Shown here piece after piece: positions 6,469 through 14,213 of a stretch of 24,265 nucleotides of DNA; the stretch's first letter is position 1; each line of letters starts with the position of its first letter. The stretch is from IMG/VR virus record IMGVR_UViG_3300007513_000201, positions 1 to 24,265 of that record. One strand, written 5' to 3'. The position numbers and the translations under genes are program-made. A model generated the notes under the pieces. The model made no database searches and was not told the DNA's origin. It was given only the letters and a program-made list of their open reading frames with translations. The DNA is from a virus.

Positions 6469-6702
6469 ATGGCTGAAGCAAAAGAAAATGTGGTCTTTCT
6501 GGACGACAAGGAAGTCAAGGTAGCTGATCTTAGTGATGAGCAAAAATACCTCCATTCACAGGTTATTGATTTAACGAACCAGAAAGCAAGGATTACCTTT
6601 CAATTGGATCAGGTAAACGCCTCACTGAAGGTTTTTAAAGATGCTTTTGTCAAATCAACCAAGGAAAAAGCGGAAGAAGTTTTAGCTGTTGACAATGGCT
6701 GA
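6469..6702 (+). CDS. Small coiled-coil phage protein (DUF6447-like?)
   Basis: A 77-residue acidic/lysine-rich protein. It begins with a short strand pair, V-V-F-L-D-D-K-E-V-K-V (8-18), then L-S-D-E-Q-K-Y-L, followed by one long helix with heptad-like spacing through I-T-F-Q-L-D-Q-V-N-A-S-L-K-V-F (42-56). The layout of a small hairpin with D-D-K-E-(V/Y), an L-S-D-E-Q turn and a helical tail resembles phage proteins grouped as DUF6447, which have no known function; the link is tentative. It overlaps the next gene by eight bases (ATG at 6695, TGA at 6700-6702), so the two are probably made together. Confidence 0.6.
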   Translation: MAEAKENVVFLDDKEVKVADLSDEQKYLHSQVIDLTNQKARITFQLDQVNASLKVFKDAFVKSTKEKAEEVLAVDNG

Positions 6703-7402
6703 CGAGGACATAAAGGTAGAAGTACATCCATTGCCTTCAGTGTTTCTTATGGAAACACAGATGCCAGAGAAAATGGTCAATGACCTTAACACTTATTTGG
6801 ACGATTTGTTGAAACAGGATGATCGTGAGTCCTTGGCAGGTACGTTAGTAGGGCAAATCCATCGTGGTGAACAACTGAACATGGACCCAGAACATGAATT
6901 GTTACAGGAATACTGCCAGTTTGTAACAGGTTTGGGGGCTTCGTATGTGAATACAGTGATGGAACAAACAGGACACGCCTTGGAAAAGCCGAGGCAAGTG
7001 GGAATAGATGAAGTCTGGTCGGTGCATAGTTTTGAAGGTGATTACAACCCGATCCACGATCATGGCACGAAAACCATTATGGGTATATCAACAACAGCGT
7101 GGACAAAAGTGCCACAGCAGATATTGGACCAACCGACAGCAGGATCACCGCAATACAGCAAATACAATGATTCTGGAGCCTGTGATGGCTATTTGGCGTT
7201 CAGTTATGGGCGCAACCAGATCATGGATGTGGAGCGATTGCGACCCCCACAGAGCGCAGAAGTGCAACCACAGGTAGGAAGGCTATTCGTTTTTCCATCG
7301 TGGTTACAGCACATGGTTTATCCTTTCTTCGGGAAAGGTGAACGCAGGACAGTGGCATCGAATCTTAACTGTTGGGAAGTGCAAGAACAACCAGCGACAT
7401 GA
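6695..7402 (+). CDS. Putative 2OG-Fe(II) oxygenase-like protein
   Basis: Read from the ATG at 6695 this is 235 residues. The frame also has an in-frame TTG two codons earlier, but the ATG is preferred. The probable metal site is H-D-H (121-123) in Y-N-P-I-H-D-H-G-T, with a distal His206 in F-P-S-W-L-Q-H and Arg217/218 in E-R-R-T-V-A-S-N. This order (G-D-Y-N-P-x-H-x-H, then F-P-x-W-x-x-H, then R ... N) matches the putative 2OG-Fe(II) oxygenase family seen in many marine phages. The family would hydroxylate a target using 2-oxoglutarate and oxygen; the substrate here is unknown. Its place just after the fibre genes allows a role in modifying a virion or host protein. Loss of activity cannot be excluded. 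Confidence 0.65.
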   Translation: MADEDIKVEVHPLPSVFLMETQMPEKMVNDLNTYLDDLLKQDDRESLAGTLVGQIHRGEQLNMDPEHELLQEYCQFVTGLGASYVNTVMEQTGHALEKPRQVGIDEVWSVHSFEGDYNPIHDHGTKTIMGISTTAWTKVPQQILDQPTAGSPQYSKYNDSGACDGYLAFSYGRNQIMDVERLRPPQSAEVQPQVGRLFVFPSWLQHMVYPFFGKGERRTVASNLNCWEVQEQPAT

Positions 7403-7904: not shown

Positions 7905-8324
7905 ATGTATGAGTACCAATGCGAAGTTAAAAGGATAGTTGATGGGGACACTGTAGATGTCATCATCGATTTAGGGTTTTCTATACATTTTTCTACCAGA
8001 GTCCGTCTTTACGGAATCGATACCCCCGAATCACGCACACGAGACAAGGATGAAAAAGTCCGAGGCTTTTTAAGCAAAGATTATTTAAAAGAATGGCTTG
8101 ACCAAGGTGGCGTTATCATTCGTACCTATAGGGATAAAAAAGGTAAGTTTGGCAGGGTGCTGGGCGAAATGGTTGTTGGGGGGCGTAACATCAATTTACT
8201 CATGGTTGAAGAGAACCTTGCTGTTAAATACGAAGGGCAGAGCAAGGACGACATAAAGAAAGAACATCAGGTTAATCGGGAGAAGTTGATTGAGAAGGGG
8301 ATTTTTGACCCAAGTGAAGTATGA
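7905..8324 (+). CDS. Thermonuclease (Snase/TNase-like) family nuclease
   Basis: A 139-residue staphylococcal-nuclease-fold enzyme that cuts nucleic acid with calcium help. By eye, the family's active residues are present: Asp15 in V-D-G-D-T-V-D, Arg34, Asp39 and Glu42 in V-R-L-Y-G-I-D-T-P-E, and Arg84 in K-F-G-R-V-L. These match Asp21, Arg35, Asp40, Glu43 and Arg87 of the Staphylococcus enzyme. N-I-N-L-L-M-V-E-E-N-L-A-V-K-Y follows as expected. The length is that of the bare catalytic domain with no signal peptide, so it acts inside the infected cell, perhaps on host DNA or RNA. Its stop overlaps the next start (ATGA), linking it to the envelope genes. Confidence 0.9.
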   Translation: MYEYQCEVKRIVDGDTVDVIIDLGFSIHFSTRVRLYGIDTPESRTRDKDEKVRGFLSKDYLKEWLDQGGVIIRTYRDKKGKFGRVLGEMVVGGRNINLLMVEENLAVKYEGQSKDDIKKEHQVNREKLIEKGIFDPSEV

Positions 8325-9733
8325 TGAAACGCTTGTTGGGCATATCTGGAATAGTTTTCTTCTTTGCCTTGTCGAGTACCTTTACTACGATTCGGGCAGA
8401 GCAAACAGGTGACTGTACTGCTGGTACTGAGTTTTGTGAACAGAACTCGTTAGCGACCACAAATACCACGACTACTACAAATACCAATACGAACACCAAT
8501 ACGAACACTAACACGAACACAAATACTAATACGAATGCCAATACGAACACCAATACCAATACAACCACTACGACATCTACTGGTACAAATACTAATACCA
8601 ACACAAATACAAATGCGAATACAAACGTAAATACCAGCACAGCAACAAATACCAACACCAATGCCAACACGAATGTAAATACGAGTACCGCAACGAATAC
8701 AAATGCGAATACAAACACCAATACTTCGACAGCGACCAATACGAATGCCAATACAAACGTAAACACCAATACCAGTACCAGTGCGAACACGAACACAAAC
8801 AGCAACACGAATGTAAATACGAATACATCCAATGTAACCTCGAACTCAACATCGAGCACAAACAACACAAATACAAGCACGAGTGCTAATACGAACACTA
8901 ATACCAATAACAATACCAGCACCAGTACGAACACAAACACCAACAACAATAATAATACGAGCACAAGTACCAGCAGTAATACCAACAACAACACAAACAC
9001 CAGCACCAGCAACAATACCAATACTTCGACAAGCGATAACACGAACACCAATAACAACACCAATGTGAATCAGTCCACATCTGATTCCAATGTGAAAACA
9101 GACAATAAAAATGTTAACGAGAGCACTTCAACTTCTGATAACACCAACCGAAACATTAATGAGTCGAAATCTGAGCAGACGATAAACCAGAATATTAAAC
9201 AGGAAGCACCGCCAGCTTCAGCAATAGCACCGAGCATCATGTCCTATTCACAGGACTTGTGTACTGTTGGCAGAAGTGGAGCGTTTCAGGGACAGGTGTT
9301 TGGTCTCTCAGGAGGCAGGACAGTGGTGGATGAGAATTGTGAACGCCTAAAATTATCCAAATATCTTTACGATATGGGCATGAAAGTAGCCAGTGTTGCG
9401 TTGCTTTGCCAAGATGTCAGGGTTTTTAAAGCAATGGAAATGGCAGGAACGCCTTGTCCATATAATGGAGCCATTGGTGATTCTGCGAAAACTGCTTGGG
9501 TAGCCAACATAGAAGACAGACCCGATGCCAAAGACCATAGCAAGAAACTAAAGAAAGAGAACAAGAAGGTTAGGGATAAAGCCAAAGGCAAAACGGATAT
9601 GCAAAGAAAAGTAAAAGAAGGTTATTCATACTGGAGGGCTTACTGGAGAATGTGCAAACATGAAAAGAATCCTAATGGCTCTTTTAAATCCAAAAAGGAA
9701 TGTAGGATAGAATATGCAAGGGTTTCTTCTTAG
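8321..9733 (+). CDS. Exported Asn/Thr-repeat protein with Cys-rich C-terminal domain
   Basis: A 470-residue protein. A signal peptide is clear (K-R, a hydrophobic core through I-V-F-F-F-A-L, likely cut after I-R-A at 26). Two cysteines follow (G-D-C-T-A-G-T-E-F-C). Residues 46 to about 250 are mostly alternating Asn and Thr with Ser, Ala and Val, then a charged Asn/Ser linker to about 294. The C-terminal domain has six cysteines and marks such as Y-S-Q-D-L-C, N-C-E-R-L-K-L-S-K, Y-D-M-G-M-K-V-A-S-V and A-G-T-P-C-P-Y, and a Lys-rich tail. From memory this domain recurs in marine phages with no known function. With eight cysteines after a signal peptide, disulfides outside the cytoplasm are likely. 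No lipobox is seen. The next gene overlaps it by 20 bases. Confidence 0.75.
   Translation: MMKRLLGISGIVFFFALSSTFTTIRAEQTGDCTAGTEFCEQNSLATTNTTTTTNTNTNTNTNTNTNTNTNTNANTNTNTNTTTTTSTGTNTNTNTNTNANTNVNTSTATNTNTNANTNVNTSTATNTNANTNTNTSTATNTNANTNVNTNTSTSANTNTNSNTNVNTNTSNVTSNSTSSTNNTNTSTSANTNTNTNNNTSTSTNTNTNNNNNTSTSTSSNTNNNTNTSTSNNTNTSTSDNTNTNNNTNVNQSTSDSNVKTDNKNVNESTSTSDNTNRNINESKSEQTINQNIKQEAPPASAIAPSIMSYSQDLCTVGRSGAFQGQVFGLSGGRTVVDENCERLKLSKYLYDMGMKVASVALLCQDVRVFKAMEMAGTPCPYNGAIGDSAKTAWVANIEDRPDAKDHSKKLKKENKKVRDKAKGKTDMQRKVKEGYSYWRAYWRMCKHEKNPNGSFKSKKECRIEYARVSS
8453..9070 (+). repeat. Asn-Thr hexanucleotide-class coding repeat (AAY ACN)
   Basis: About 600 bases of alternating Asn (AAY) and Thr (ACN) codons, interrupted by Ser, Ala and Val, encode the low-complexity stalk. 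Third positions vary freely (AAT/AAC; ACA/ACC/ACG/ACT), so the tract is not a pure DNA microsatellite. It also leaves the opposite strand free of stops, which creates a false long antisense frame. Confidence 0.9.
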
Positions 9734-12344
9734 TCTGCTTCTTTTTGTTTCGGTTTCACAAGTAGAAGCTGATTATGTTTATGAAGCGAGCCAACCCTTA
9801 TACGACTTACAAACCAATTCAGCAGGGTCTACAGGGTTAGGATCAAATGATGATTCAGTATCGGCAGCCTTTGACTTAGGCTTTACCTTTACCTTTTATG
9901 GTAATGACTTTACTCAAGCAAGAATGGCTACCAATGGCTGTCTGCATTTTAACCTGACAGGCAGTTATTGTGGGGATTACACCCCCGATCCACTCCCTCA
10001 ATACACCAATACTTTATTTCCATTCTGGACTGACCTCATAAAAGACGGTGGTTCAGCCATGAGAGCCAAAGCCTTTGATGATTACACCATTTTTGGCTGG
10101 TATAAGATGCGGGAATACAATCGTGCTAATTCTGATAATAGTTTGGAAGTCTGGTTGTATCCTAATAATACTTATGAGTTCCGTTATGGCGAACTGGATA
10201 TTATTAGCCATGATGTTTTAATAGGCGAACAGGGCAGTACCTCACAGATTTACACCTACCATTTCTTTGACGAGTGCAGTACAGGCACTACCAATGTATC
10301 TGGAACTTGTGTAAGTTACGACTGGAACTCCAGCAGTAATGCGGTGAATACTTTACTGGAAGGCGGTGGCTCTTTGTATGGGGATGGTACAGATCAATCG
10401 TTGTGTGCAACAGTTCCTTTAACTTCAGTCAACTGTGCTGGTTATGCCGTAGCTTATTTTAATCAACAGTGTGATTTAAGTGCTTTATACGATGATGAGT
10501 GTACTGGCTACGCTGCTGCTTATTTGTTGCAACAATGCAATCTGGATATTTTCTATTCGGTAAATTGTGTTGGCTATGCTAATGCACTGTTTGACAGTGA
10601 ATGCGATGACGACCCTCAGTTTTCTCCTTCTTGTCCAGGCTATTTGTTTGAACAATCGGCTGCCTACTTTGTCGAAGAACAATACGACTATGGCTATGAG
10701 GAATTTGATTATTACGAAGAAGACTATTTTGTTTACGAAGATGAAAGTTTAGGGACTGTAGGGTATGAAGAAGTTTGGGACGATGACCCTTATGCCAATA
10801 TGGAATTTACAGATGCAGAGTGGTATGAAATTGACTTAGAAGAATTTGGACAAGAGCAGGTAGATGAGTGGTATGGAGCAGAAGTTTCGTTTGATGATGA
10901 GGGTTTGATTGTTTGGGAGGATTCTGCTTTAAGCGATTGGGATGAACTCGATATGCAAATGGATGAATACGATGAGTTCGTTGAAATCTATGAAGAAGTT
11001 TACTACGAAGAAGAGTATTTTGATCCAGTTTATGAAGAAGAATTTGTAGAAACGCTTTACATCGAAGAAGAATACATTATTTATGAAGAGCTTTATGAAG
11101 AGCCTATAGAGGTTGCTTTTGAGTATGAACCCGAATATGAAACGCCATTACTGGAAGATGTGCTCATGCAAAACTTTGAGCATGAGCAGATTGTAGAAGT
11201 TTTTTATGAAGAAGAGCCAGAATTTCTTGAGTTTGAAACGATAGAAGAACTGGATGAATGGTTTGAAGAGGAAATGGAAGAAGAGCAACTTGCCGAAGAA
11301 GAAGTCATAGAGGAAGCAATAGAAGAGTCTATTGAAGAAGAACTGCTGGCAGAAGAAAGGGAAGAGCTCGAAGAAGCTATAGAGGAAGAAGAATTTGAAG
11401 TGGTTGCCAGAGAAGATAACAAGGGCGATAAAAGAGAAATGCAACTGAATGTGGTTGCCAATACTGTGCGAACAGCGACCAATAGTATGAGTGGGACTAC
11501 ATCGGGTACATCCATGCAATCTACAGGCAATTCTGTGGCTTCTGGAGGCGTTTCTAGCCCTACTGCTACTGCGGTAGCCAGTTCCGCTTCGGGAGGCGGT
11601 ATGAGCATATCCAGTTCTCCCAGTATTTCAGCACAGTTTACATCTGCTACAGCGCAGACACAGACCCTTTTGGATATGAGTTCAGTAGCTTCAACAGGAG
11701 GCTCAATGTCAACTGACATGGGTTCGTTTGATTCAGGAATTACCTCTGTTGCATCAGCAGATACATCTCTTTCGGCTGATATGGCTTCGGTTGATTCTGG
11801 TTCCACTGTAGAGGTTGGAGCTTCGGTAGAAACAGAAGTTGCCTCTGGAGACACAGAAGTAACTGTTGCAGACACAGGGAGTTCGGATACAGCATCTGGT
11901 TCTTCTGGCACAGTATCTGTCAGTGTTGTTCCCATGCAGACATTTGATGGTTCACCACAGGTGGTCATGGCAGAAGTACAGGTACAAAATATGCAGGGAG
12001 AGATCGACACAGCCATTTCAGGAGTGATGACAGCCAGTGAAGCGGATCAGGTTGCAGATAAAATCATTGCCCAAAACATAAAGGAACAGCAGGAAGAACA
12101 GGAAGCAGAACAGCAACAAACAGGGCAATATGCCGACTCAACTACGCTGATTGCCTACATGGGTTATGTGCCTGGATTCAATGCCTACAGTCAAATACAG
12201 TTGCCACAAGCCTCCGCTTGGTATGAACCAAAAACAATTTATGGTAATGTATCCATATCGGATAATGTGCAGGCATTTTATGGAATGTATGCAGACAGTC
12301 TGAATGGCATGAACAATTTAATTAATATGCAACCAAAACTATAG
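9714..12344 (+). CDS. Large exported protein: nidogen-like domain, 22-residue Cys array, acidic Tyr/Glu region
   Basis: An 876-residue protein. The signal peptide is L-L-S-L-L-L-F-V-S-V-S with likely cleavage after V-E-A (19). Residues about 20-200 resemble NIDO-like beta domains: D-L-G-F-T-F-T-F-Y-G, M-A-T-N-G-C-L-H-F, P-F-W-T-D-L, F-G-W-Y, N-T-Y-E-F-R-Y-G. Cysteines at 231, 241, 253, 263, 275, 285, 297 and 307 alternate 10 and 12 residues apart around G-Y-A-x-A-Y. Residues about 321-563 are very acidic with many Tyr. A Ser/Thr/Ala/Val-rich linker (about 575-735) and a C-terminal domain (A-Y-M-G-Y-V-P-G-F; W-Y-E-P-K-T-I-Y; S-D-N-V-Q-A-F-Y) end it. Similar modular proteins recur in marine phages, from memory; function is unknown. 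AGGA precedes the ATG within the previous gene. Confidence 0.75.
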   Translation: MQGFLLSLLLFVSVSQVEADYVYEASQPLYDLQTNSAGSTGLGSNDDSVSAAFDLGFTFTFYGNDFTQARMATNGCLHFNLTGSYCGDYTPDPLPQYTNTLFPFWTDLIKDGGSAMRAKAFDDYTIFGWYKMREYNRANSDNSLEVWLYPNNTYEFRYGELDIISHDVLIGEQGSTSQIYTYHFFDECSTGTTNVSGTCVSYDWNSSSNAVNTLLEGGGSLYGDGTDQSLCATVPLTSVNCAGYAVAYFNQQCDLSALYDDECTGYAAAYLLQQCNLDIFYSVNCVGYANALFDSECDDDPQFSPSCPGYLFEQSAAYFVEEQYDYGYEEFDYYEEDYFVYEDESLGTVGYEEVWDDDPYANMEFTDAEWYEIDLEEFGQEQVDEWYGAEVSFDDEGLIVWEDSALSDWDELDMQMDEYDEFVEIYEEVYYEEEYFDPVYEEEFVETLYIEEEYIIYEELYEEPIEVAFEYEPEYETPLLEDVLMQNFEHEQIVEVFYEEEPEFLEFETIEELDEWFEEEMEEEQLAEEEVIEEAIEESIEEELLAEEREELEEAIEEEEFEVVAREDNKGDKREMQLNVVANTVRTATNSMSGTTSGTSMQSTGNSVASGGVSSPTATAVASSASGGGMSISSSPSISAQFTSATAQTQTLLDMSSVASTGGSMSTDMGSFDSGITSVASADTSLSADMASVDSGSTVEVGASVETEVASGDTEVTVADTGSSDTASGSSGTVSVSVVPMQTFDGSPQVVMAEVQVQNMQGEIDTAISGVMTASEADQVADKIIAQNIKEQQEEQEAEQQQTGQYADSTTLIAYMGYVPGFNAYSQIQLPQASAWYEPKTIYGNVSISDNVQAFYGMYADSLNGMNNLINMQPKL
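10404..10634 (+). repeat. Cys-array repeat, 10/12-residue alternation
   Basis: Eight cysteine codons (residues 231-307 of the protein at 9714) alternate exactly 10, 12, 10, 12, 10, 12, 10 residues apart, giving a 22-residue unit. Within units the pattern is C-x-G-Y-A-x-A-Y/L-x-x-Q/S-x-C then D/N-L or D-D with an aromatic before the next Cys. Confidence 0.88.
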
Positions 12345-12353
12345 GGAGCTAAA

Positions 12354-12809
12354 ATGGACTGGTTTCAATCTAAAACAACACAATTGATTGCTTTGGTTTC
12401 TATTGTAGGAACACTAGCAGGGTTTGGTTACACAGGCGCAACCTATGTCAACAGGCTTGAAAATCTTGAAGCCAAGATAGGCGGGATTGTAGAAACAGAA
12501 GATGCACAGCAAGCTATTGAAGAACGCTTTGCAGGAATAGAGACCTCTGTTGAATTTGTCAACAAGACAATTGATGAGAGTTTGCTCGTTTGGATTAAAG
12601 AAGCACAGGACAATGTTTCGGCTATTCAGGTAACAGTTGGAAAGCTGGAGTCCGATATTGAGAACATTGATATTCCCGATATTGAGCCTCTGCAAGAGAG
12701 TATATCAACAACAAACGCAAGTATTGCTGGGATTAAAGCCAGCGTTGATGCGATCTATGCAGATGTTCAATCCCTTAAAAATAAAAGTGATAACCCATTA
12801 GCACAGTGA
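12354..12809 (+). CDS. Membrane-anchored coiled-coil protein
   Basis: A 151-residue protein with an N-terminal membrane helix, Q-L-I-A-L-V-S-I-V-G-T-L-A-G-F-G-Y (10-26), then a largely helical, acidic and Ile/Leu-spaced region. V-N-R-L-E-N-L-E-A-K-I (32-42), V-T-V-G-K-L-E-S-D-I and the I-D-I-P-D-I-E-P-L-Q break mark it out as a long coiled coil. One anchor plus coiled coil recalls an inner spanin or a tether. A better spanin pair lies at 13418/13815, so this is more likely a separate scaffold or partner of the exported proteins before it. GGGAG precedes the ATG. Function is unknown. Confidence 0.7.
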   Translation: MDWFQSKTTQLIALVSIVGTLAGFGYTGATYVNRLENLEAKIGGIVETEDAQQAIEERFAGIETSVEFVNKTIDESLLVWIKEAQDNVSAIQVTVGKLESDIENIDIPDIEPLQESISTTNASIAGIKASVDAIYADVQSLKNKSDNPLAQ

Positions 12810-12816
12810 GGCGATT

Positions 12817-13200
12817 ATGAGCGATGAAAATTACCCAAGCGGAAGATTCGGTGGCGACATGGACAGGAATGAAGTTGAGATTGATCTCAATAAATTCATG
12901 GCATTGTTGCAGGAAACAGCAGAACTTAAAGACAAGATCAGGGATTTGGAGGATGTAACCAAAGCCAACCCTTATCAAAAAATTATTTTTGTAGCCGAGG
13001 CAGTAGACAGTTGGCGGATATTCCCCAGAATTTTTCTGTGCGTTTATATCTTTTTGCTTTATTACGCAACCATGTGGTTTATGAATTTACCAGACCCAAC
13101 CTTTGAGCAGTCTGGATTAATCAGTATTATTGTTGGTAGTTTCGCAGCCTGTTTCGGACTTTATGCAGGAAACTCCAATGCAGCTAAGAAGAATAAGTAA
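12817..13200 (+). CDS. Putative holin (two membrane helices)
   Basis: A 127-residue protein with a charged N-terminus and short coiled coil (L-N-K-F-M-A-L-L-Q ... L-K-D-K-I-R-D-L-E), then N-P-Y-Q-K-I-I-F (51-58) and D-S-W-R-I-F-P-R-I-F. Membrane helix 1 is at about 71-89 (I-F-L-C-V-Y-I-F-L-L-Y-Y). A W-F-M-N-L-P-D-P loop leads to helix 2 at about 100-117 (G-L-I-S-I-I-V-G-S-F-A-A), and the tail is basic (N-A-A-K-K-N-K). Two spans, a Pro-Asp loop and a Lys-rich end suit a class II holin, and very similar marine-phage proteins are called holins from memory. Holins form the inner-membrane hole at lysis. GAGG precedes the ATG at 12817. Confidence 0.6.
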   Translation: MSDENYPSGRFGGDMDRNEVEIDLNKFMALLQETAELKDKIRDLEDVTKANPYQKIIFVAEAVDSWRIFPRIFLCVYIFLLYYATMWFMNLPDPTFEQSGLISIIVGSFAACFGLYAGNSNAAKKNK

Positions 13201-13214: not shown

Positions 13215-13421
13215 ATGGCTATAGGTTTAAGCAAATGGTTCAAGGCGACCTTTCTTGGTCTTGAAGAAAAAAGAGTACGCACCAGAGATAAAGACGGCAA
13301 ATATGTTGGTGACGATAAATCCACCCCTGATGTCAATGAGGCTTATACTACTATTAATGTCCGTAAAAGTAACATAAAGAAGGCACAGGAAAGAAGACTT
13401 AAAAGACGCAACATTAAATGA
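13215..13421 (+). CDS. Small basic phage protein of unknown function (68 aa)
   Basis: A strongly basic protein with W-F-K-A-T-F-L-G (8-15), then R-T-R-D-K-D-G-K-Y-V-G-D-D-K-S-T-P-D-V-N-E-A and a C-terminal run of Lys and Arg (K-K-A-Q-E-R-R-L-K-R-R). The R-D-K-x-G-x-(Y/F)-V-x-D-D-x-S-T-P motif with an N-terminal aromatic helix occurs, from memory, in short proteins of marine phages, without a known role. The basic tail could bind nucleic acid or phospholipid. AAAGGAGG lies five bases upstream, and the TGA shares bases with the next ATG. Confidence 0.65.
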   Translation: MAIGLSKWFKATFLGLEEKRVRTRDKDGKYVGDDKSTPDVNEAYTTINVRKSNIKKAQERRLKRRNIK

Positions 13422-13855
13422 AGCTCGCTGTTTTCTTAGGGGTAATGCTGTTGCTGACGATTTCTGCTTTTGTGGGTTATCGCATGATTGTGGTAGCCGA
13501 GATAGAAAAATTGGAACTAGCCTTGCAAACAGCACTCAACAATCAACAGGTGCTTGAGAATACAGTCAAGCAACAAAATGACCAGATTGTGCAAGCGTTG
13601 GAAAGTGCTAAGAAAACCCAGCAACAAATCCAGAGCTTGAATACACGCTATAGCGAATCACAGGCACAGGTAACAAATTTGAGAAATAAGTTTGCCAATC
13701 ACAATCTTGAGGGCATGGCATTAGCCAAGCCTGCGTTATTGGAGGGCAAGATCAACAAAGCCTCTGCCAGAGTGTTGGAAAACTTAACTGTAATAACAAA
13801 TCCAGAACAATTTAATGAAGAACTTGCTGATACTGCTACTGCTGCTGTCAATTAA
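13418..13855 (+). CDS. Inner-membrane spanin (Rz-like)
   Basis: A 145-residue protein with an N-terminal membrane anchor (L-A-V-F-L-G-V-M-L-L-L-T-I-S-A-F-V-G, 3-20). A long coiled coil runs from about 28 to 92 (I-E-K-L-E-L-A-L ... V-T-N-L-R-N-K-F), and a conserved block H-N-L-E-G-M-A-L-A-K-P-A-L-L-E-G-K-I-N-K (95-114) follows. This is the plan of an inner spanin, which joins an outer-membrane lipoprotein and disrupts the outer membrane at the end of lysis. The lipoprotein gene at 13815 overlaps its last 41 bases in another frame, the classical Rz/Rz1 arrangement in partly nested form. It is coupled to the gene before by ATGA. Confidence 0.75.
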   Translation: MKLAVFLGVMLLLTISAFVGYRMIVVAEIEKLELALQTALNNQQVLENTVKQQNDQIVQALESAKKTQQQIQSLNTRYSESQAQVTNLRNKFANHNLEGMALAKPALLEGKINKASARVLENLTVITNPEQFNEELADTATAAVN

Positions 13856-14213
13856 TGGTTGTACCTCTTTCTCTCTTTTTGGAGAAAGAAAAGCGAAAAC
13901 TATGGCACCAGAGACAAAGCCTGTGGAAGTTGTCACTGTTACCAGAACTGCGCCCATTTACCATCCACCATTGCCAGAGCCGATTGAATCTTCGGGAATA
14001 GAATGGCGGATACTTTCTCCTGATATAATGCAACAATATCTTGAGAGTGTGGAAGCAGGAGAAGAACCAAGAGTAGCGTATTATGGGCTAACGAGCCAAG
14101 GTTATGAGAATTTAAGCATGACTATGGGGGAAGTTACCAGATATTTGGAACAGATACTGCATATTGTAGGTTATTATCGGGAAATGGATGAAGAAGAAGA
14201 GGATACTAAATAA
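13815..14213 (+). CDS. Outer-membrane spanin lipoprotein (Rz1-like)
   Basis: A 132-residue lipoprotein. The signal L-L-I-L-L-L-L-L-S-I-N-G-C places the acylated cysteine at 16, with lipobox S-I-N-G-C. After it come T-S-F-S-L-F-G-E-R-K and a Pro-rich stretch Y-H-P-P-L-P-E-P (49-56). A conserved C-terminal region follows with W-R-I-L-S-P-D-I-M-Q-Q-Y-L, A-Y-Y-G-L-T-S-Q-G-Y-E-N-L-S and an acidic end. Proline-rich short lipoproteins overlapping a membrane-anchored coiled-coil gene are the hallmark of o-spanins. This one is longer than lambda Rz1, as in other marine phages. The start lies 41 bases inside the inner-spanin gene in another frame. Confidence 0.75.
   Translation: MKNLLILLLLLSINGCTSFSLFGERKAKTMAPETKPVEVVTVTRTAPIYHPPLPEPIESSGIEWRILSPDIMQQYLESVEAGEEPRVAYYGLTSQGYENLSMTMGEVTRYLEQILHIVGYYREMDEEEEDTK

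Follow-up and report, generated by a model that had tools for sequence, protein, structure and literature searches.

How do phages without a recognisable spanin open the outer membrane of their hosts? Kongari et al. counted 91 of 677 phages without an identifiable spanin, P-SSP7 and Syn5 included, stated that such phages are an open problem, and called for other routes to be considered, non-lipoprotein ones among them (PMC6139136). Pelagiphages and their relatives are among the most abundant marine viruses, and for most of them the opening of the outer membrane is unexplained. The locus described here brings this question to a stretch of 24,265 nucleotides (hereafter, the window), which is part of a podovirus-like phage and in which two proteins that look exported, A and B, are encoded within a cluster of membrane and lysis genes. 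What part would such proteins play there?

The features of the locus are summarized in Table 1. The original prediction had described A and B as overlapping, exported proteins; the two reading frames do overlap, as they do in 57 of 70 loci, and translational coupling between them is likely. The lysis-type setting that had been proposed was also present, with a membrane coiled-coil protein (gene C), a protein with two transmembrane (TM) segments, and an Rz/Rz1 pair. The two-TM protein is a holin-like candidate, and its family adjoins A in other loci too. The SNase gene on the 5' side is likewise close to A in the gene maps of several relatives. Note that the minus-strand reading frame at 8272-9063 is a mere mirror of the N/T repeat in A. 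A 52-kb IMG/VR sister contig (L009/G001) has the same genes and, over 16,276 bases, differs from the window by a single mismatch. The sister contig also encodes a serine-recombinase-like protein (L125:724-1407), which makes a temperate lifestyle possible. Two further genes of the window were noted, namely a 2OG-Fe(II) oxygenase (6689-7402; PF13759, phrog_81) located between the tail genes and A-B-C and, amid the structural genes, a 251-residue protein of non-structural look (943-1698; VAIVAMGKSQLDYHLS...).

Table 1. Coordinates of the features of the A-B-C locus (window positions unless another record or residue numbers are given)
Feature	Position	Strand	Remarks
SNase-family nuclease	7905..8324	+	PF00565, 3e-12; immediately 5' of A, 4-base overlap
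Gene A	8321..9733	+	470 aa; same orientation as late genes
A predicted signal peptide	about aa 1-26		N-terminus MMKRLLGISGIVFFFALSSTFTTIRA, cleavage before EQ; hydrophobic core and A-x-A-like site
A N/T/S-rich low-complexity region	8456..9220	+	about aa 46-300; 90 N, 89 T, 33 S in 255 residues
A core	9230..9520	+	about aa 300-400; C1 - beta hairpin - C2 - helix (x22) - C3 - C4
A/B overlap	9714..9733	+	20 bases
Gene B	9714..12344	+	876 aa; same orientation as late genes
B predicted signal peptide	about aa 1-19		N-terminus MQGFLLSLLLFVSVSQVEA, cleavage before DY; hydrophobic core and A-x-A-like site
B N-terminal NIDO-like domain	9771..10409	+	below Pfam cut-off
B acidic E/Y/D-rich region	10671..11423	+	86 E, 22 D, 24 Y in 251 residues
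B conserved C-terminal region	12021..12341	+	
Gene C	12354..12809	+	TM/coiled-coil protein
Two-TM protein	12817..13200	+	phrog_10198, uncharacterised family; two hydrophobic segments
Small basic ORF	13215		between two-TM protein and spanin pair
i-spanin, Rz-like	13418..13855	+	phrog_739, 2e-7
o-spanin, Rz1-like lipoprotein	13815..14213	+	phrog_812, 4e-12; SINGC lipobox
Virion structural protein	14214		phrog_3287; relatives annotated stabilisation protein
Mini-A lipoproteins	L109:5600-5860; L008 ORF at 1710; L111:886-1101		

Both A and B have signal-peptide-like N-termini, as had been predicted, here called from hydropathy alone; the n-region of B has no K/R, and many of its relatives have one (MQKR...). 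The many cysteines attributed to the two proteins were also found, with 8 in A (residues 32, 39, 314, 340, 363, 379, 445 and 461) and 12 in B. In A, the signal peptide is followed by a Cys pair, the N/T/S-rich repeat, whose length differs among relatives, the 4-Cys core, which is the best-conserved portion of the A-B-C module, and a basic, helical tail that contains another Cys pair. In B, the order is signal peptide, NIDO-like beta domain, C-x-GYA Cys repeats, an E/Y-rich acidic region, an S/T/G-rich region and a conserved C-terminus with a QPKL end. The NIDO family (PF06119) matched 16 of 51 B relatives, at best with 5e-4 and below the cut-off, and did not match the B of the window itself.

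Structure prediction, one of the checks proposed at the outset, gave an AlphaFold model for residues 298-470 of A (pLDDT 84), with a beta hairpin between C1 and C2, helices and a long tail helix, and one for the N-terminal part of B (pLDDT 80), with a beta-rich domain and paired helices in the Cys repeats. No significant match to the PDB was obtained for A or for B, the NIDO-like domain model included, by sequence or fold search, and the A model matched only uncharacterised phage proteins in BFVD. Neither protein matched a characterised family in Pfam, PHROGs or NCBIfam, consistent with their having been called undescribed. Residues 218-387 of A (the end of the repeat and the core) aligned to positions 105-281 of 314 in phrog_20531 (4e-11), which resembles A in this alignment and differs from it in being a cluster of uncharacterised proteins without assigned partner genes.

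Gene C encodes an N-terminal TM segment and a coiled coil, and it ends with a conserved NPL motif (KSDNPLAQ in the window). By charge, 34 of 65 C sequences were N-in and 8 the reverse, the rest being tied, and the mean flank charge was +0.23 N-terminal of the TM segment versus -0.45 after it. These charges favour a predicted N-in, C-out topology with the coil in the periplasm. In architecture only, C thus has the plan of an i-spanin, with a single N-terminal TM segment and a predicted periplasmic coiled coil. Assignment of C as Rz-like through phrog_739 was rejected, the score of 16-17 bits being coiled-coil noise from a model that matches 11 of 14 control genomes; its assignment as a DUF2730 releasin was also rejected, with 14 bits against a Pfam cut-off of 24.9 (E 0.056), among matches to generic coiled coils. 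Among the relatives, the annotations of C as lysozyme in CRP-207 (L008:3292-3873) and CRP-810 (L109:7204-7626), and of A as OmpA family in CRP-810 (L109:5818-6573), are likely wrong.

Conservation of A and B as neighbours had been set in advance as a check. Among the 69 loci with readable downstream sequence, A was followed by B and then by a C-type protein with the NPL ending in 66, so that the expected co-occurrence with the coiled coil also held. As to the unit itself, which had been given as the pair, the linkage of A and B stood but its limits did not; the conserved unit is the triplet A-B-C, because the NPL-ending C is integral to it. Where dS was measurable, dN/dS was about 0.05-0.17 for the A core, the B N-domain, the B acidic region and C, and these parts are under purifying selection.

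The 4-Cys core of A was found in at least 599 confirmed IMG/VR contig stretches and in 11 of 50,697 phage records. The latter are six pelagiphages (HTVC202P, Baldr, HTVC033P, HTVC115P, HTVC023P and the myovirus Mosig), the roseophages CRP-207 and CRP-810, two Manatee Spring phages and the T7-like Votkovvirus S28C10. Only 20 loci were found in GTDB genomes, and they appear to be contigs of phages that were binned together with MAGs. The A-B-C linkage spans podo-, T7-like and myoviruses, and its carriers are many, unrelated and aquatic, mostly marine. Searches by tblastn with B or C as the query returned nothing or only the query itself, because B and C diverge fast. In HTVC027P, neither A nor an NPL-ending protein was found within the 50 kb searched, and the module is therefore not universal among pelagiphages. 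At gp13-gp17 (L118:1385-3341), just ahead of an M15 peptidase, HTVC027P encodes TM/coil proteins along with a secreted protein of the 4-Cys kind. Its gp14 is 51% and 44% identical to A of HTVC202P and Baldr over about 40 residues, confined to the signal-peptide region, and we do not claim homology of the 4-Cys part. No description of the A-B-C triplet was found in the open-access literature. A-B-C is real, conserved and undescribed as a system.

The front domain of B differs between groups of phages. It is CBM_4_9-like in pelagiphages versus NIDO-like in the window type (Pfam matches below the cut-off), and the acidic middle and the C-terminus of B are retained although the front domains differ. 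Between the window, at about 9750-10470, and three related loci (L064, L087 and L041), DNA identity was mostly 79-91%, versus mostly 50-73% in the flanks; for L064 and L087, the N-domain at 9771-10409 had 79-91% against 42-80% around it. In the same comparisons, dS was 0.9-1.2 in the B N-domain, and it was at least 1.6 or saturated in the A core, the B acidic region, the B C-terminus and C. The front domain of B, with its high identity and low dS relative to the flanks, is therefore swapped as a cassette; the stretch at 9750-10470 is a recombination island exchanged between phages, which is what local selection on a binding domain would be expected to produce.

Where the module lies was also informative. 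In 18 larger records, all four stand-alone GH24 lysozymes were 0.95-1.63 kb from the module, and four of five Rz/Rz1 pairs were within 1.2 kb of it. With random placement in about 45 kb, the chance of four lysozymes being so near is roughly 1e-5 to 1e-4, a value to be read with the relatedness, and hence non-independence, of the records. In Votkovvirus S28C10, the order is tail fibre, two-TM protein, A, B, C, small genes and TerL; in T7, the stretch from tail fibre to terminase houses the lysis genes, holin and spanins. The endolysin is far away from the module in HTVC202P and Baldr, and the remainder of the 52-kb sister contig gave no PF00959 match and no endolysin recognised by eye. The position of the module beside lysis genes favours a role at the envelope during lysis.

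The o-spanin family phrog_812 was not found in any of the 11 A-bearing phage records. When HTVC202P, Baldr and S28C10 were scanned in six frames for lipoboxes, no late lipoprotein was detected, the single convincing lipoprotein being encoded by an HTVC202P gene on the strand opposite to the structural genes. In roseophage-type records only (CRP-207, CRP-810 and ct7L0027), a short lipoprotein containing a mini-A motif is encoded directly 5' of A. Of 10,927 ORFs, these three ranked highest after A itself, with HMM E values of 7e-4, 0.003 and 0.06; two of them have C-x22-C in the motif. In CRP-810 and ct7L0027, the lipoprotein comes after a TM/coil gene.

Our leading reading, a serious possibility that stops somewhat short of being probable, is that A-B-C is a late, lipoprotein-free trans-envelope complex which acts at lysis and does, or aids, the job of a spanin. 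A-B-C would be expressed late; C would be anchored in the inner membrane and extend its coiled coil into the periplasm, A and B would be secreted and stabilised by disulfides, and the basic tail of A could pair with the acidic stretch of B, the three forming a putative complex across the host envelope. The front domain of B might bind a polymer of the envelope or surface, perhaps LPS, peptidoglycan or another glycan, and the complex may disrupt or detach the outer membrane at lysis without a lipid-anchored subunit, the site and the effect both being conjectural. This job would be done alone in phages without a recognisable Rz1 and beside Rz/Rz1 in phages of the window type; a complete Rz/Rz1 pair is encoded next to the module in the window phage, so A-B-C is not just a substitute for one. 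The basis in hand is the gene set, its order and overlap, the export-type N-termini, the topology deduced from sequence, the lysis-cassette site, the selection and the domain exchange. Against a spanin-like reading stand chiefly this Rz/Rz1 pair and the absence of a recognisable A or C from the searched part of HTVC027P; the distant endolysins of HTVC202P and Baldr also count against it. A and B have neither a lipid nor a membrane anchor, and known spanins contain nothing comparable to the 200-residue NIDO/CBM-like domain or to the Cys repeats.

The main rival, which we consider unlikely, is a surface adhesin or aggregation factor, in which the stalk of A and the binding domain of B, displayed on dying cells or on cell debris, would hold cells, polymers or virions together. 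Such a function would suit the long low-complexity stalks and the carbohydrate- or matrix-type binding domain of B, which is swappable and recently exchanged, and it has a precedent in the curli of pelagiphages, for which sibling capture has been proposed (PMC7029224, PMC9599517). However, neither an outer-membrane export route nor a surface anchor was identified in A/B, and an adhesin would not need to be so closely linked to lysis genes and to a coiled coil of the inner membrane. CsgG (PF03783) was absent from all 21 module-bearing records, including Mosig, HTVC023P and the sister contig, with positive controls, which counts against an adhesin of this kind and rules out curli secretion as the reading of A-B-C.

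A role in periplasmic control like that of T4 RI, Imm or Sp, in which A/B would sense or block an incoming phage or would restrain the holin or endolysin until release, is less probable still. The small disulfide-bearing secreted domain with a membrane partner, beside two-TM holin-like proteins, recalls T4 RI, reported as a secreted antiholin (PMC8385771), but B is large and modular, the module is among the late genes rather than the early ones, and the family searches described above gave no characterised match. It is very improbable that A and B are virion-associated, either exported through the secretory pathway or put together at the membrane: tail and structural genes flank them, and the combination of a variable binding domain and a constant end is reminiscent of tail fibres, yet their N-termini are signal-peptide-like, and A-B-C is common to podo- and myoviruses with unrelated tails. 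Signal peptides are unusual on the virion proteins of tailed phages. Hardly credible, finally, is the view that C is a releasin or another endolysin regulator of DUF2730 type and that A and B adjoin it with no functional tie. The C of Votkovvirus carries a DUF2730 annotation, the C of the window touches the same family, and Mu gp25 is a precedent (PMC9239132); that match is however sub-threshold and amid generic coiled coils, the charge pattern of C favours N-in, opposite to gp25, and several neighbouring lysozymes start without a SAR-like segment.

Returning to a trans-envelope complex acting at lysis, A-B-C is a concrete candidate for the opening of the outer membrane, kept in podo- and myoviruses of SAR11, in phages of Rhodobacteraceae and in freshwater phages, and the core of A can be used as a marker for finding the module. 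The fuller claim is that A-B-C is an envelope machine, previously undescribed, with which aquatic phages breach or detach the outer membrane at the lysis stage with no lipoprotein of their own, and in which binding domains tuned to host or environment are swapped onto a constant core; as it stands, this claim is doubtful. If true, A-B-C and a comparable secreted pair of cyanophages would explain the passage of the outer membrane in many spanin-less marine phages.

Among known systems, the phage curli (T8SS) of pelagiphages and Melnitz (CsgG/CsgF/CsgA-B, FecR) are like A-B-C in being exported proteins of marine podo- and myophages. They are unlike it in gene set, A-B-C having no CsgG, and neither A nor B had a Pfam match to the curlin repeat (CsgA/B). 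For Melnitz, an earlier proposal tied the curli pores to lysis timing (PMC9004378). In cyanophages, a widespread pair of secreted proteins is found beside a two-TM protein (DUF6450; L116:38376-39238 in P-SSP7, and 453 cyanophage records). This pair (phrog_650 and phrog_1755/848) shares with the locus two secreted proteins adjoining a two-TM protein, and its second protein has, by eye, the 4-Cys C1-hairpin-C2-helix-C3-C4 pattern of A. Homology of phrog_1755/848 to the A core was rejected (hhalign probability about 0, P 0.9), and no counterpart of A or of the NPL-ending C was found in P-SSP7 and Syn5. The releasin gp25 of Mu, a DUF2730 protein (PMC9239132), is like C a short lysis-region protein with an N-terminal TM segment and a coiled coil; unlike gp25, C probably has the opposite topology, and its DUF2730 match does not reach the cut-off.

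Two-component spanins (lambda Rz/Rz1, T4 PseT.3/PseT.2) share with A-B-C the lysis-cassette site, overlapping genes and a disulfide-forming partner, and with C in particular a partner that has an N-terminal TM segment and a periplasmic coiled coil. They differ in that A-B-C has three genes, signal peptides of the cleavable type on A and B, and a large binding domain, and coexists with a true Rz/Rz1 pair in the window phage. A lipobox was looked for in A and B and was absent, so that A-B-C is not a spanin by definition; it may nevertheless work like a spanin system.
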